Of a stretch of 41,162 bases of DNA, positions 16,698-30,203 are shown in pieces. The notes beneath the pieces were generated by a model. It searched no databases and had not been told where the DNA came from. It saw only the letters and a program-made list of their open reading frames with translations. Position 1 is the first letter of the stretch; every line of letters begins with the position of its first letter. Both the position numbers and the translations under genes were made by a program. The stretch spans positions 1 to 41,162 of IMG/VR virus record IMGVR_UViG_3300045999_012357; one strand, 5' to 3'. The stretch comes from a virus.

Positions 16698-17441
16698 TTA
16701 AGAAGATATTGGCTTAAAATGGATTATTTGATTTGACTTATTTATTATAACTCTACATTTTCCCCATCCATTCTGTTTATTTGCTATGAGTATATTATTA
16801 GCAATATTATGTCTACTTATCTCTGTATTCTTCTCTCTCATCTCAAACCAATCTTTCTCTAGGTATCTATTCTTTGCATATAAATTATTAGCGATAACAT
16901 CGGTATAAACAGGATCTAATATATAATTTAGATTGATCGCTTTTGCTCGATTAATCAAATCTGTATCTTGATGTGAATGAGGTAATAATTCTTCATCATA
17001 TCCACCTAATTTGTAAAAATTATCTCTTGTTAAGGCTATTCTACCGAATGATCCACCAAGCATTTCTGTGTGCATATGTAAAATAGTATTTTTATCTTTT
17101 GTAAAGTATTTATCTATTTTATCTCTCATATTTATCAAAAGATTATCTACATCTAAATTGACTAATATTTGGCCTTCTCCGAATCTATGAGCGATATTTT
17201 TTGCTTTTGGGCAATGAAATTTATGTACATCTAAAACTTTAATAAATTTTAATTTATTTTCTTCTATGTATTTTGTAAAAAATTTTGTACCTAATACAAA
17301 TATAGATGTATCATCTGGACTATTATAATCAACTAAAATTAATTCCTCATCGTCTCTTAAATTCTCTAAATTATCTCTGAGAGTAAAAGCTAACTGCCAT
17401 AATCTGCCATAGCATACTGTGCAATAAGAAACCTTTTTCAC
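16698..17441 (-). CDS. Family 2 glycosyltransferase with GTG start
   Basis: A GT2/galactosyltransferase C-terminal-type enzyme. LVDYNSPDDTSIF (about 37-49) is the nucleotide-binding acidic strand; ILVNLDVDNLL (about 91-101) holds the DxD metal site; and GGSFGRIALTRDNFYKLGGY followed by HSHQDTDLINRA (about 129-168) is the acceptor-side signature. It is 247 residues with no transmembrane helix. The start is GTG (17441-17439); TTGTCA-N17-TATAAT precedes it with predicted +1 one base away, so a leaderless GTG-initiated mRNA is predicted. It is divergent from the structured RNA. Confidence 0.8.
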   Translation of the reverse strand: MKKVSYCTVCYGRLWQLAFTLRDNLENLRDDEELILVDYNSPDDTSIFVLGTKFFTKYIEENKLKFIKVLDVHKFHCPKAKNIAHRFGEGQILVNLDVDNLLINMRDKIDKYFTKDKNTILHMHTEMLGGSFGRIALTRDNFYKLGGYDEELLPHSHQDTDLINRAKAINLNYILDPVYTDVIANNLYAKNRYLEKDWFEMREKNTEISRHNIANNILIANKQNGWGKCRVIINKSNQIIHFKPISS

Positions 17442-17448
17442 TATAAAT

Positions 17449-17499
17449 ATTATAATCTAAATAAATTTATTTGACAAATCTTAAAATAAAGTATACTAT
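17449..17499. promoter_or_regulatory. Back-to-back sigma70 promoters sharing one -35 core
   Basis: Rightward: TTGACA (17471-17476), 17 bp, TACTAT (17494-17499), with TATACT as an overlapping alternative; it drives the structured RNA with +1 near 17504-17506. Leftward: TTGTCA (17477-17472), 17 bp, TATAAT (17454-17449), with +1 at 17442, next to the GTG of the glycosyltransferase. The two -35 boxes use the same TTTGTCAA/TTGACAAA bases, so the two directions should compete for polymerase. The dNMP kinase / dCMP deaminase promoter pair shows the same design. Confidence 0.7.
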
Positions 17500-17503
17500 A
17501 TTA

Positions 17504-17795
17504 GAACATACCGCCCAATTAGCGGATAAGGTTTGTCGTACTCCGCAAAACGATAAGTCTTATTAGTTCGAACGTGGGCAACGCTAACGGAGCTTGCGAC
17601 CCAGATAACCACTAGTAATAGTGGGAGTGTAGGTGTAAGGGCTAACACGCGAATGACAGTCCTACCGGTGTCTGATAAGTGTTAGGAGCCGAAAGGCTTT
17701 GGACTCAATTGGGAAGTTGAACTAATAGGCTTTTGCTAACTTTGTATAAAATACAGGGAAAGCTCCGCTTTGAGGATCTCATTGGGAAGTTATAA
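17504..17795 (+). ncRNA. Structured noncoding RNA of unassigned family, about 290 nt
   Basis: No long reading frame is present and base composition is clearly more GC-rich than around it. Paired elements I can see: CCGC/GCGG (17511-17514 / 17522-17525) with a 7-base loop; CCACTA-GTAA-TAGTGG (17609-17624) and AGCC-GAAA-GGCT (17687-17698), both closed by GNRA tetraloops; CTAACAC/GTGTTAG (17642-17648 / 17679-17685); AGTCC/GGACT (17658-17662 / 17701-17705); AAAGC/GCTTT (17759-17771). The first loop CCAATT (17515-17520) is complementary to AATTGG (17707-17712), a pseudoknot. ATTGGGAAGTT is repeated at 17708-17718 and 17781-17791, so the loop could pair with either copy. It is transcribed from the TTGACA promoter. 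It is not tmRNA, RNase P RNA or a cobalamin riboswitch as far as I can match. The 3' end is estimated. Confidence 0.75.
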
Positions 17796-17832
17796 TATTA
17801 AAGTATTTGATACACTCTTTATTTATATTTTC

Positions 17833-17860
17833 ATAAATGTTAATAAGATTTATTTTTTTT
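17833..17860 (+). terminator. Weak possible Rho-independent terminator
   Basis: ATAAAT (17833-17838) and ATTTAT (17848-17853) can pair around a 9-base loop, followed by a T-rich run to 17860. The stem is only A/T pairs, so it is weak. It lies downstream of the structured RNA and before nrdA, where a terminator or attenuator would make sense. The rest of 17796-17923 shows nothing else that I can support, apart from the nrdA ribosome binding site AGAAAGG at 17904-17910. Confidence 0.25.
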
Positions 17861-17923
17861 CTTTTTTAAAAGTTAAAAAGGTTGTAACATAAGTATCTTA
17901 AGAAGAAAGGTTTTTAATTAGAA

Positions 17924-20176
17924 ATGATACATGTAAAGAAAAGAAATGGTTCAAGCGAAAAATTTAATATAGAAAAAATTCATAAAGTAATAAATTGGGC
18001 AGTAAAAGATTTATCCAATGTAAGCTTAACAGAGATAGAGATAAATGCTAAAATTAATATTCACGATGGAGTAACTACTGAAGAAATACATAAACTTCTA
18101 ATTGAATCTGCTGCAAATTTAATTTCTGTAGAAAAACCAAACTATCAATATGTCGCTGGAAGACTTTTAAATTATCAATTAAGAAAAGATGTATGGAAGG
18201 GAAAACATGCTCCACGTTTACTAGAATTTCTCAATCAAGGACTAAAGAATAAAATATATGACCCTATTATCTTAGAAAAGTATACTGAAGATGAAATTAA
18301 TAAGATTGGAGAATTTATTGATCATGAAAGAGATTATAATTTCACTTATGCAGGAATCAAACAGCTTTGCGATAAGTATTTGATAAAAGATAGAGTTACA
18401 GGAAAAATATATGAAACCCCGCAGTTCGCTTACATACTAATAAGCACTTATGCTTTTATTAATTACCCAAAGCAAACAAGATTGAATTATGTTCGTAAAT
18501 TTTATGATTCTATAAGTAAACATAAAATTAATCTTCCAACACCAGTAATGGCTGGAGTAAGGACACCAAGTAAAAATTATGCTAGTTGTTGTTTAATTGG
18601 AGTTGATGATAGTAGAGAGAGTATTACAGCTAGTGCTACTGCAGTAAGTATGGCTACAGCTAGTAGATGTGGAATAGGTATAGATGTATCGAAAATAAGA
18701 GCTATTGGATCACCCATTAAAAATGGAGAAGTTGTTCATACTGGATTAATACCATTTCTTAAAATCTATGAAAGTAGCGTTAAAGCATGGCAACAAAATG
18801 GTCTTCGTGGTGGTAGTGCTACTTGTAATATTCAATGGTGGCATTATGAAATAGAAGATATTGTAGTATTAAAAAATAATGCTGGAACAGATGATAATCG
18901 TGTTCGTAAACTAGATTATACAGTTGGAATGAGTAAATTATTTTACGATAGAGTTCTTAAGGATGAAGAAATCACTCTATTTAATACAGCTGAAGTTCCA
19001 GAGTTATATCAAGCTTGGGGAACTAAAGATTTTGATAAAATTTATAAAGAATGTGAAACTAAAAAATTAAAAATTAAAAAGAAAGTTTCTGCTCGTAAAT
19101 TATTCTCTTTAATAATTAAAGAACGAGTTGAAACGGGTAGAATTTATATCCTTAATGTAGATCATGCTAATAATCATGGAGCTTGGCTAGATAAGGTAAC
19201 AATGAGCAATCTTTGCACCGAAGTTATTCACCCTACTATTCCACTTAATGATTATCACGATAAAAATGGTGAAATTGGCATGTGTATTCTTTCGGCAGTC
19301 AATATGCTAGAAATTAAAAACTGGCAAGATCTTGAAAAGACTTGCGATCTTATCGTAAGATTTCTTGATGAAATCATTGATATTCAAGATTACTTCAATA
19401 TTGCTGCTGAAAATTTTGCAAAAAAACGTCGTAGCCTTGGCATAGGTATAACTAATTTGGCAGCTTATCTTGCTAAAAATGAATTAAAATACACATCAGA
19501 TAAGACACTTCCTGTTCTTGATGAGTGGATGGAGCATTTTCAATACTATCTTTTAAAATCAAGTTTAGAACTTGCCAAAGAAAAAGGAAAATGCGAAAAA
19601 TTTGATAGGACTAAATATTCGAAAGGTATTCTTCCTATTGATACTTATAAAGATAAAGTAGATGAATTATGTAAAAGGAAATTATCTCTTGATTGGGAGA
19701 AGTTGAGAAAAGAAATAAAAGAATTTGGACTAAGACATTCTACATTATCATCTTGTATGCCATGCGAAAGTAGTTCTGTAATTCAATCTTCAACCAATGG
19801 CGTAGAACCAATTCGTAGTTTAATTACTTATAAGATGAGTAAGATGGGTAAGTTGCCAGTGCTAGTTCCTGGAGTTGGTAAATATGATGATAATTATGAA
19901 TTAGCTTATGATTTCAAAGATAATTCTGGTTTATTAAAAATAAACGCTATCATTCAAAAATACATTGACATGGCTATATCAACTAATGTATACTACAATT
20001 ATTCTCATTATGAAAATAATGTTCTTCCAGACGCTAAAGTAATGAAAGAAATTATGCAAGCTTATTCATTAGGTTTAATTAGTCTTTACTATAATAATAC
20101 AGATGATGGCGATAAAGAACAACTAATGAACCAAAAAGAAGATCGCGATTGTTCTTCTGGCGCGTGTAAATTATAA
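17924..20176 (+). CDS. nrdA: Class Ia ribonucleoside-diphosphate reductase, alpha subunit
   Basis: Reduces all four NDPs to dNDPs with NrdB's radical. An ATP-cone (residues 1-90, starting MIHVKKRNGSSEKFNIEKI) provides allosteric control. The catalytic set is complete: Cys222 in ASCCLIG, the thiyl-radical Cys431 with Asn429 and Glu433 in NLCTEV, Cys454 in MCILSAVN, the radical-transfer Tyr722-Tyr723 in LYYNNTDDG, and the C-terminal redox pair CSSGAC (Cys743/Cys748), which ends the protein as CKL. 750 residues is the normal length. It is followed three bases later by nrdB. A purine-rich AGAAAGG lies about 13 bases before the ATG. Identity is certain. Confidence 0.97.
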   Translation: MIHVKKRNGSSEKFNIEKIHKVINWAVKDLSNVSLTEIEINAKINIHDGVTTEEIHKLLIESAANLISVEKPNYQYVAGRLLNYQLRKDVWKGKHAPRLLEFLNQGLKNKIYDPIILEKYTEDEINKIGEFIDHERDYNFTYAGIKQLCDKYLIKDRVTGKIYETPQFAYILISTYAFINYPKQTRLNYVRKFYDSISKHKINLPTPVMAGVRTPSKNYASCCLIGVDDSRESITASATAVSMATASRCGIGIDVSKIRAIGSPIKNGEVVHTGLIPFLKIYESSVKAWQQNGLRGGSATCNIQWWHYEIEDIVVLKNNAGTDDNRVRKLDYTVGMSKLFYDRVLKDEEITLFNTAEVPELYQAWGTKDFDKIYKECETKKLKIKKKVSARKLFSLIIKERVETGRIYILNVDHANNHGAWLDKVTMSNLCTEVIHPTIPLNDYHDKNGEIGMCILSAVNMLEIKNWQDLEKTCDLIVRFLDEIIDIQDYFNIAAENFAKKRRSLGIGITNLAAYLAKNELKYTSDKTLPVLDEWMEHFQYYLLKSSLELAKEKGKCEKFDRTKYSKGILPIDTYKDKVDELCKRKLSLDWEKLRKEIKEFGLRHSTLSSCMPCESSSVIQSSTNGVEPIRSLITYKMSKMGKLPVLVPGVGKYDDNYELAYDFKDNSGLLKINAIIQKYIDMAISTNVYYNYSHYENNVLPDAKVMKEIMQAYSLGLISLYYNNTDDGDKEQLMNQKEDRDCSSGACKL

Positions 20177-25577: not shown

Positions 25578-26687
25578 ATGCAACAAACATTTAAAGAAGC
25601 TCTTGGCTACGATGACATTTCTCTACTTCCAAATTTTTCAGATATCAACTCAAGAAAAGAGGTAAGCACTAAAACTAAAATATCAAGAAATTTCGAGATT
25701 AATATTCCAATTATTTTATCTCCAATGGATACAATTTCTTCAGTAAAATCATGTATTAAAATAAATAAATTAGGTGGCGCTGGAGTAATACATAGATTCA
25801 TGTCTATTGATGATCAAACCAGTAAAGCTAAACGCATCAAAGATGAAAGCAATTTTTGCGTAACAGCAATCGGATTAAAAGATGCAGATAATAGGATTAG
25901 GGCTACGAGTACGTATACAGATATTTACTTTTTAGATACAGCAAATGGTTTAGCTAAAAATGTAGAAGACTTTCTAAGATGGTATAAAACTGCTGGATTT
26001 AGACAAGATATTATAGTTGGAAATACTTTAACAAAACAAAGCGTTTACAGATTGGCAATTTTAAAAGCAGATGGATTTAGACATTTAATTGGTCCTGGAT
26101 CTATGTGTTTAACACAGGTAAAAACTGGAATAGGTTGTCCAAGTATTACTGGAAATTATTATGCATGGAAAGCCGTAAGAAATTGGGAGCTATCTCAAGT
26201 AGATTTATTCAGTTCAAATGAACCAGATCCATCTAATAGACCAAGCATTTTGACTGATGGTGGAATCAGATATCCAAAAGATTTAGTTAAAGCAATTGCA
26301 AGTGGATGTGATGCCGTTATTTGTGGTAGAATTTTCGCTGGTCTTGCAGACGTTATTGAGGATGAAGATATAGTAGAAAAAAACGGACAAAGATTCGCTA
26401 AGTATAGAGGTATGGCGAGCAAAGATGTAGTAGAAGATTATGAATTGCACGATGGAACAAAGAAGAATCTTTTCGTTGAAGGCGATAATACTTTGATTCC
26501 AATAGTAGAGAATAAAACCATCGAAGATGTAGTGTATGATTTCGCAAATGGCTTAAGAAGTTCAATGAGTTACTTAGGCTTTAGAGATCTAAAAGATATG
26601 CGTGGAGGACTATGGACTAATAAGATAGTTGCCGTAAGAACAACAACAAATAATATGTATGAAGGATTTTCTCACGGAAAGGTATAA
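25578..26687 (+). CDS. IMP dehydrogenase / GMP reductase family enzyme, no CBS domains
   Basis: A TIM-barrel purine oxidoreductase of 369 residues. The opening GYDDISLLPNFSDINSRKEV, the catalytic-Cys loop GPGSMCLTQVKTGIGCPS (about 173-190), ILTDGGIRYPKDLVKAI and GRIFAGLAD are family hallmarks, followed by YRGMAS and GLRSSMSYLG. The 120-residue CBS pair of most IMPDHs is absent, as in GMP reductase. The Arg of the IMPDH Arg-Tyr flap appears to be Asp here, and KTGIG recalls GMPR, but the C-terminal E..SHG recalls IMPDH. So GMP-to-IMP or IMP-to-XMP cannot be decided. The start is fixed by its leaderless promoter. Confidence 0.82.
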   Translation: MQQTFKEALGYDDISLLPNFSDINSRKEVSTKTKISRNFEINIPIILSPMDTISSVKSCIKINKLGGAGVIHRFMSIDDQTSKAKRIKDESNFCVTAIGLKDADNRIRATSTYTDIYFLDTANGLAKNVEDFLRWYKTAGFRQDIIVGNTLTKQSVYRLAILKADGFRHLIGPGSMCLTQVKTGIGCPSITGNYYAWKAVRNWELSQVDLFSSNEPDPSNRPSILTDGGIRYPKDLVKAIASGCDAVICGRIFAGLADVIEDEDIVEKNGQRFAKYRGMASKDVVEDYELHDGTKKNLFVEGDNTLIPIVENKTIEDVVYDFANGLRSSMSYLGFRDLKDMRGGLWTNKIVAVRTTTNNMYEGFSHGKV

Positions 26688-27232: not shown

Positions 27233-27459
27233 TTCAAAGCGGAGATGCACCTCTTTATGTAAGAGCAACTGATAGATCCCCAATCTATAGGTTAGCTCCA
27301 AAAGTCGGAAGAAATTCTATTTGTCCTTTTGAAAATAAGAAATTTAAAAATTGTTGTGGTAAAGATGGCAGTAATCATTGTAAAAAACTTCTTTCAGATT
27401 ATTTAGATAATTTACAAGATAAATCTATTAAATCTCAGACAGATGATAAAAACAGTTGA
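27229..27459 (+). CDS. SEC-C-like zinc-motif protein missing one Cys
   Basis: The central KVGRNSICPFENKKFKNCCG resembles the SEC-C motif (GRNDPCPCGSGKKYKKCCG), which binds zinc through C-x-C...CC. Here the second Cys is Phe (ICPF instead of CPC), leaving one Cys, the CC pair and a later HC (GSNHC). Either binding is altered or a different ligand (His or the later Cys) is used. 76 residues, Lys-rich C-terminus. It is coupled to both neighbours: its start overlaps the preceding TGA and its end overlaps the purA start by 17 bp. Role unknown; perhaps an adaptor. Confidence 0.65.
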   Translation: MIQSGDAPLYVRATDRSPIYRLAPKVGRNSICPFENKKFKNCCGKDGSNHCKKLLSDYLDNLQDKSIKSQTDDKNS

Positions 27460-28435
27460 TATTATTTTTGGTTTAGCTTGGGGTGATGAAGGTAAAGGAA
27501 AAATAAGCAATGCTATATCTAAAAATTATGATATTGTTTGTCGTTGGAATGGTGGCCCCAATGCAGGTCACACAGTTTATCTTAACGATAAAAAATATAA
27601 AACTCATATTATTCCTTGTGGAGTTTTCCAAAATAAACTTAGTATCATTGGTCCAAATTGCGTTATCAATGTTGATAAATTTTTTGATGAAATAGAGTAC
27701 TTACAAAAAGAAGGTTTCGATACTTCTTTAATTAAGGTAAGTCCTAAAGCTCATATAATTACTCAAAAGCATATTCAATATGATCTTCAAGTGCTTAAAG
27801 CTAAATTAGGCACTACTGGTCAAGGCATAGCTCCTGCTTATGGAGATAAAATGTTAAGGATAGGCAAACTTGCTAGAGATTATATTGATAAACAATATCT
27901 TTGGGATGGTGAACTATATGGAGACATTCTTTGTGAAGGAGCCCAAAGTTTTTGGCTTGATATAAATTATGGAGATTATCCATATGTTACAAGTAGTGAA
28001 ACTCTACCATACTCAGCATGTTCGTTAGGATTTTCTCCTAAAAAAGTGCGAGATATAATTGGAGTTGCTAAAATATATGATACAAAAAGTGGAGTAGATC
28101 CTTTATTTCCAGAAAGTCTATGGGAAGATCCAGAGTTAAATATGCTTATAGAGATTGGTCAAGAATTTGGTTCTACTACTGGCAGAAAAAGAATCGTAAA
28201 TTGGTTAAACTTGAATAAATTAATTGATGCGATAAAAATCTCTGGAGTTACAAAGCTTATTATTAATAAGTGTGATATTCTAGAAAAAATACATACATAT
28301 AAACTATTTCAAAATAATAACCTTTATAAATTCAATACAATACATGCTATGCAATCATTTATAAAGAATCAATTAAATCATATTTTAAATGAACCAATTG
28401 AAATAATCTTTTCTGGAAACAAAGAAACGATTTAA
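27443..28435 (+). CDS. purA: Adenylosuccinate synthetase
   Basis: Joins IMP and aspartate with GTP hydrolysis to give adenylosuccinate, the step toward AMP. Motif WGDEGKGK contains the catalytic Asp15, and GGPNAGHTVY the His43 pair. TTGQGIAPAYGDK binds IMP, and SSETLPYSACSLG and TGRKRIVNWLN follow. Length is 330 residues, about 100 shorter than cellular PurA and comparable to phage forms. Retention of Asp15 and the canonical P-loop argues for PurA rather than PurZ of the 2-aminoadenine pathway, which changes that residue. It overlaps the SEC-C-like gene. Adenylosuccinate lyase would come from the host. Confidence 0.9.
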   Translation: MIKTVDIIFGLAWGDEGKGKISNAISKNYDIVCRWNGGPNAGHTVYLNDKKYKTHIIPCGVFQNKLSIIGPNCVINVDKFFDEIEYLQKEGFDTSLIKVSPKAHIITQKHIQYDLQVLKAKLGTTGQGIAPAYGDKMLRIGKLARDYIDKQYLWDGELYGDILCEGAQSFWLDINYGDYPYVTSSETLPYSACSLGFSPKKVRDIIGVAKIYDTKSGVDPLFPESLWEDPELNMLIEIGQEFGSTTGRKRIVNWLNLNKLIDAIKISGVTKLIINKCDILEKIHTYKLFQNNNLYKFNTIHAMQSFIKNQLNHILNEPIEIIFSGNKETI

Positions 28436-29783: not shown

Positions 29784-29815
29784 ATAAAAAATGCAGTCAG
29801 AGGGATTCGTTTGCT

Positions 29816-30203
29816 TGGACCCGAGAGGAGTTGAACCTCTGTCTTTTAAAAATTTAAATTAAAATACTACAAGTTTAGTTCTTTTTATTTTTAGCTTTGT
29901 ATAGAAAAAGAACAAACATACTCAGCGATTTTATTTTGAATACGATGACGATAAAGAATAAAAAAACTTTATAGGCAAAGACATCTAAATACGCAATTAT
30001 CCAATAGATGTGTCATGGTAATCACGCCGTAGAACTTAAGCTACAGAAACGGTCTCCTCGACTAGAGAAACTCTAGCAGAGATATGACCTTTGTATTTGG
30101 CTGTTTTGGCAGTTAATACTTTTAAGGCTTTTTAAAGAGACCCACCTAAACCTCTACCTGCATTTTAATTCCGATTCCTAAAATCGAAACCAATTACGGG
30201 CCC
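29816..30203 (-). ncRNA. ssrA: tmRNA (transfer-messenger RNA)
   Basis: Rescues stalled ribosomes and tags the nascent protein for degradation. The tRNA-like ends are complete: acceptor strands GGGCCCG (30203-30197) and CGGGTCC (29823-29817) form 7 pairs with one G-U, and the T arm is AGAGG-TTCAACT-CCTCT (29840-29824), as in all tmRNAs. The 5' part continues TAATTGGTTTCGATT. CCA is not encoded. The tag frame starts at resume codon GCC (30110-30108), after a TTAACT element as expected, and ends with TAA (30038-30036): 24 residues beginning AKTAKYKGHISA and ending ETVSVA. That is longer than the usual 8-15 and ends SVA rather than LAA. A gene this long without reading frame is otherwise unexplained. 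Confidence 0.93.

Follow-up and report, generated by a model that had tools for sequence, protein, structure and literature searches.

A predicted free-standing structured RNA family of uncultured T4-like phages, with two pseudoknots and a duplicated motif that changes in step

Upstream of nrdA in a viral contig (IMG/VR record IMGVR_UViG_3300045999_012357, 41,162 bases, analysed over its whole length and hereafter called the window) lies an RNA locus whose relatives in other uncultured freshwater phages share an elaborate fold and two identical copies of a short unpaired motif. Comparison of these relatives establishes the existence of the RNA, its fold, its own promoter, its independence of nrdA and the mirrored evolution of its motif. 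We propose, with a probability of about 0.58, that it belongs to a new family of free-standing structured RNAs that are encoded by phages, act in trans and would present two equivalent docking sites to one partner.

The locus sits between a minus-strand gene (17441 to 16698) and nrdA, which begins at 17924, and no open reading frame of 60 or more amino acids was found within 17441-17924. The GC content of the 292-base RNA stretch is 44.9%, compared with 29.2% for the window, and is the highest among 2044 sliding 292-base windows; the folding free energy has a z of -2.76, and none of 200 dinucleotide shuffles folds as well. Directly upstream is a sigma70-type promoter (Table 1). A perfect TTGACA and a TAT.AT-like -10 element recur upstream of the RNA in members of lineages A, B and C, in which the adjoining genes differ; our automatic start finder missed some members, and in those the TTGACA...TAT.AT string is visible upstream. 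An earlier note on this DNA had described a GC-richer island, free of reading frames and preceded by a consensus promoter, and each of these points is borne out. The extent given for the RNA is an estimate based on alignments of lineages A, B and C, in which conservation falls off at both flanks.

Table 1. Positions in the window of the promoter, the RNA and its predicted structural elements.
Feature	Position	Strand	Description
Promoter	17471-17499	+	sigma70-type, TTGACA-N17-TACTAT, from sequence; just upstream of RNA 5' end
RNA	17506-17791	+	estimated at 286 nt, from first conserved base through second motif copy
Hairpin h1	17511-17525	+	CCGC-CCAATTA-GCGG; many complementary stem versions
Hairpin h2	17530-17559	+	complementary arms GGTTTGTCGT / ACGATAAGTC, read from alignments
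Long-range helix h3	about 17560-17569 with 17719-17727	+	
Hairpin d	17575-17603	+	TGGG/CCCA and CGC/GCG
Long-range pseudoknot	17588-17594 with 17761-17767	+	5' strand in loop of hairpin d
Hairpin e	17609-17624	+	pairing in 94.8% of cells; two-sided changes in 4 of 5 pairs
Core pseudoknot	17629-17633 with 17661-17665	+	GTAGG with CCTAC; 3' strand in loop of hairpin c
Helix b	17642-17685	+	CTAACAC/GTGTTAG; 6 of 7 pairs with changes on both sides
Hairpin c	17655-17658 with 17669-17672	+	enclosed by helix b; two-sided changes in all 4 pairs
Hairpin f	17687-17698	+	AGCC-GAAA-GGCT, GAAA tetraloop; many compensatory stem versions
Motif copy 1	17702-17718	+	GACTCA-ATTGGGAAGTT; directly before 3' strand of h3
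Hairpin g	17740-17758	+	stem varies with compensation in all lineages
Motif copy 2	17775-17791	+	GATCTC-ATTGGGAAGTT; 3' end of conserved RNA

Relatives were gathered with nrdA as bait, which yielded 80 viral loci, 17 of them carrying the RNA at 77-89% identity; diverged forms were added by profile searches, and further ones by DNA patterns independent of nrdA. The family now comprises about 70 distinct sequences, all in T4-like viral contigs, and falls into at least four sequence lineages: A (the window type), B, C with its subgroup C2, and L016, a singleton. When a covariance model is trained on lineages B and C only, it recovers both the window (E = 3.4e-8) and L016 (E = 2.3e-4), and the lineages are therefore homologous; the master alignment across them was built through a covariance model, R1. 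The RNA occurs at most once per phage record among those searched, with one copy in 24 of the 47 records searched whole by covariance model (one coding false positive was set aside). Among isolates, the nearest nrdA genes (53% identity) belong to the marine phages HTVC008M and Mosig; the model found the RNA in neither of them, nor in a 157-kb relative, and blastn searches of phage isolates with lineages A, B, C and L016 each returned chance matches only. Scanning the relatives that lack the RNA for a divergent version with paired motifs likewise yielded none. The sole match in a genome collection, in a MAG (L113), was judged from its sequence to be coding and a chance match, and three pattern matches (L244-L246) and one model match (G032) were rejected because their sequence reads as coding.

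In Rfam 15, none of the lineages scored above the gathering threshold of any family: lineage A, represented by the window and searched at E values up to 10, and lineages B, C, C2 and L016 all gave only chance-level matches (E of about 0.4 or higher). A tmRNA identity was rejected, as the earlier note had also concluded, since ARAGORN and Rfam place the tmRNA solely at 29815-30203 as a separate gene; that minus-strand tmRNA carries an unusual tag, AKTAKYKGHISARVSLVEETVSVA, which does not end in the common ALAA. Our literature search found no paper describing this RNA family. The broad genre, that of large structured phage RNAs of obscure function, is already known, whereas this family and its signature are not. 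The proposal of an unassigned, highly structured phage RNA has thus held up under both analyses suggested for it, the Rfam search giving no confident match in any lineage and the stems of the homologues showing strong covariation.

Across 62 distinct core sequences, 95.3% of the cells in the predicted helices are standard pairs, 21 of the 30 pairs show changes on both sides, and double-change cells number 369, as against 107 in shuffles. The structure and the model alignment are not wholly independent of each other; this was addressed by the cross-lineage model match described above and by controls in which the partners were slid by 1-3 columns, whereupon pairing falls to 28-46%. Hairpin h1 illustrates the pattern, its stem being CCGC/GCGG, TCGC/GCGA, GTGC/GCAC, GCGA/TCGC, GCTT/AAGC, GTCC/GGAC or GCCT/AGGC in different members. 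Helix h3, an exact 9-nt inverted repeat in the window, closes a multibranch domain, and its own duplexes average -14.8 kcal/mol, compared with -8.4 when the strands are swapped between members. A GNRA hairpin is often part of the fold. The outer stem of hairpin d is 100% paired, with three of its four pairs changed on both sides. Two GNRA hairpins had been proposed; hairpin f is real and recurs, and in lineages A, C2 and L016 its loop reads GAAA or GCAA, but the GCAA near 17578 is part of an internal loop in a conserved hairpin rather than a tetraloop.

The fold is compact and is held together by two pseudoknots. In the core pseudoknot, 93.8% of cells are paired, and its strands read GTAGG/CCTAC, GTAGCT/AGCTAC or GTGGCT/AGCCAC across the lineages. 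In the long-range pseudoknot, the loop of hairpin d, which occurs as AGCTCCG, AGCTTTG, AGCTCTG, AGCTTCG, AGCTTGC, AGCCTTC, AGCCTAT, AGCCCTT and AGTCTTC, pairs with a strand near the 3' end, and 6-7 contiguous pairs form in 13 of the 14 distinct combinations; the outlying combination, from L065, reflects a faulty extraction, and the true partner there, AGCTCCG, is complementary. The several long-range pairs noticed earlier are accordingly supported by the relatives.

The most distinctive property of the family is the duplicated motif. In the window, the 11-nt sequence ATTGGGAAGTT recurs exactly, as a direct repeat, at 17708-17718 and 17781-17791, 73 nt apart; across the family there are two unpaired copies of a motif of 10-14 nt, 65-75 nt apart, with copy 1 preceded by one extra A (G in L024 and L089). 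The duplication, already recognized in the window, is retained throughout: in all 69 members the two copies agree at each of 10 nt, without a mismatch in 690 comparisons. The motif itself varies, with the versions ATTGGGAAGT, ATTGGGAAAT, ATTGGAAAGT, ACTGGGAAGT, ATTGGGAATT, ATTGGGAAGA, AAAGAAAAGT and AGGGAAAAAG; at least six changes are required on the core tree without L016 and at least seven with it, each mirrored in both copies, and three further changes in the preceding C/T are all mirrored as well. To locate the repeat we took the longest match whose copies are spaced 50-109 apart; because this match always lies at the homologous site, the identity of the copies is not accounted for by selection bias. 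Identity kept through such repeated change suggests that both copies answer to one thing.

We could find no such counterpart within the RNA or the phage. No segment anywhere in the RNA is a consistent complement of the motif, no exact complement is shared elsewhere in the phage DNA, and complements of 8-10 nt show no clear excess in eight phage contigs and the window. This speaks against a small RNA that base-pairs with phage mRNAs over 8 nt or more, although shorter pairing may still occur. Complements lean high in the contig of L016 and in G001 (fraction 0.03-0.07), as is expected of purine-rich strings in AT-rich DNA. Pairing of the motif with the phage tmRNA is no better than with shuffled sequences. 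The complement of the B and C motif resembles a promoter-like box, TTTTCTTT; this candidate was discarded because lineage A has the same box and a different motif. With neither a partner in cis nor a phage-encoded complement, the most fitting reading is a trans partner, which may be a host RNA or a protein, and the drift of the motif between close relatives, always in both copies, leads us to favour slightly a nucleic-acid partner over a protein.

A partner in cis had in fact been suggested by the earlier note, in which the CCAATT loop of h1 pairs alternately with AATTGG in either motif copy as a switch. The complementarity is present in the window and several close relatives, but it is no family feature: about two dozen lineage-C members keep the loop CCAATTA together with the motif AAAGAAAAGTT, which has no AATTGG, and in at least five lineage-A members (L011, L046, L032, L068 and L070) the pairing is broken without compensation. 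The switch, which depends on this pairing, is therefore refuted as a mechanism of the family; the option of two equivalent interactions, offered alongside it, survives, though not with the CCAATT loop as the partner. A different, weak pairing could join the 5' hairpin loop, CCTAA in B and CCAA in C, to TTAGG or TTGG directly before motif copy 2, and it breaks in A and C2. The motifs could also be strands of internal tertiary contacts that have to match each other's geometry. That the RNA is instead a cis-acting leader or riboswitch controlling nrdA is strongly disfavoured. In lineages A and B the two do share a strand, with the RNA a short distance before nrdA (130 nt in the window), the arrangement that the earlier note had proposed looking for in relatives, but in lineage C the RNA is encoded on the other strand and follows nrdA downstream by a few kilobases, and in L010 and L028 its end is only a few bases away from a convergent gene, while in L012 a glycosyltransferase family 25 gene (L012:2778-3893) separates the two. 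Moreover, relatives with no RNA upstream of nrdA retain a similar promoter-like element before that gene. Its own promoter and its shifting location thus mark the RNA as free-standing rather than as an nrdA leader.

There are two further rival readings. Exact direct repeats flanking a conserved segment at the 3' end, in an ornate fold compatible with catalysis, might be paired cleavage or ligation sites through which a self-processing RNA releases or circularises the 65-75 nt between them; we consider this improbable, as the RNA holds no internal guide that is complementary to the motif and varies with it, and the Rfam ribozyme and intron models show no similarity. A group I intron or other ribozyme was rejected on the same grounds. 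Somewhat less improbable, yet still unlikely, is an RNA-only assembly, a homo-oligomer in which the repeated motif makes intermolecular tertiary contacts. GOLLD, ROOL and OLE form homo-oligomers, and GOLLD and ROOL are phage-encoded (PMC12286853); the elaborate pseudoknotted fold, the phage origin and the tmRNA nearby in lineage C agree with this reading. Against it, the RNA has roughly half as many nucleotides as ROOL and one third as many as GOLLD, none of lineages A, B, C, C2 and L016 matches the GOLLD, ROOL or OLE covariance models, and the RNA carries no motif complement for strand exchange.

The comparison in style with large ornate RNAs made in the earlier note is apt to the extent that GOLLD and ROOL are the nearest in style; size and the Rfam tests argue against membership. 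Like ROOL, which is phage-encoded, large, rich in pseudoknots and of obscure function, and like GOLLD, phage-encoded, lake-derived by name, often near tRNAs and equally obscure (PMC12286853), the window RNA is ornate, but it has only about 290 nt, compared with about 600 nt or more for ROOL and often more than 800 nt for GOLLD. Its architecture is also unlike that of GOLLD. To our knowledge, ROOL has no duplicated co-varying motif. In working, an analogy may be drawn with sponge RNAs of the CsrB/RsmZ type, in which repeated identical short motifs titrate one partner; those motifs are GGA in hairpin loops and present in many copies, whereas the window RNA has two copies in unpaired strands, and the GGA preceding them is not invariant. 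The packaging pRNA of phi29 is another phage-encoded structured RNA that serves as a scaffold, although it is shorter and belongs to another phage group; the window RNA shows no Rfam match to it.

Several observations concern the neighbourhood of the RNA. Before nrdA, the window holds at 17845-17895 a pyrimidine-rich box, TTTTTTTTCTTTTTT, followed by TTGTAACATA, and similar TTTTTTCTTT ... TGTAATATA elements precede nrdA in relatives; this is perhaps a phage middle promoter. In L010, L019, L028 and L059 the RNA lies near related tmRNAs. Glycosyltransferase genes, one of which is inserted between the RNA and nrdA in L012, are frequent in the window as well. The window also encodes, on the plus strand at 27443-28435 and 25578-26687, a protein that matches the 2-aminoadenylosuccinate synthetase PHROG (E 5e-66), close to a gene of the IMP dehydrogenase/GMP reductase type, a possible link to modified purines in phage DNA.

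Returning to a trans-acting RNA with two docking sites, we envisage that host RNA polymerase would transcribe it early from its own promoter as a stable RNA, and that the pseudoknotted fold would set a fixed distance between the two motifs. Judging from the identity of the copies, both may dock the same partner bivalently, whether this is a host RNA pairing with the motif or a motif-binding protein, probably dimeric, so that the RNA could act as a decoy or scaffold during takeover. A fuller version, to which we give rather less than even odds, is that of an early phage RNA whose rigid pseudoknotted scaffold holds two interchangeable motifs for the bivalent capture of a host RNA or protein, the motif being re-specified jointly in both copies as the partner evolves.

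With this family, a large group of uncultured T4-like phages gains an RNA whose structure, including two pseudoknots, is near-complete and supported by covariation. The mirrored evolution of its motif offers a direct approach to function: one would expect the partner to match the ATTGGGAAGTT, AAAGAAAAGTT or AGGGAAAAAGTTT of each lineage, which would make the target searchable once the hosts are known. If base-pairing is the true mode of interaction, host RNAs would carry AACTTCCCAAT, AACTTTTCTTT and AAACTTTTTCCCT, matched by lineage.
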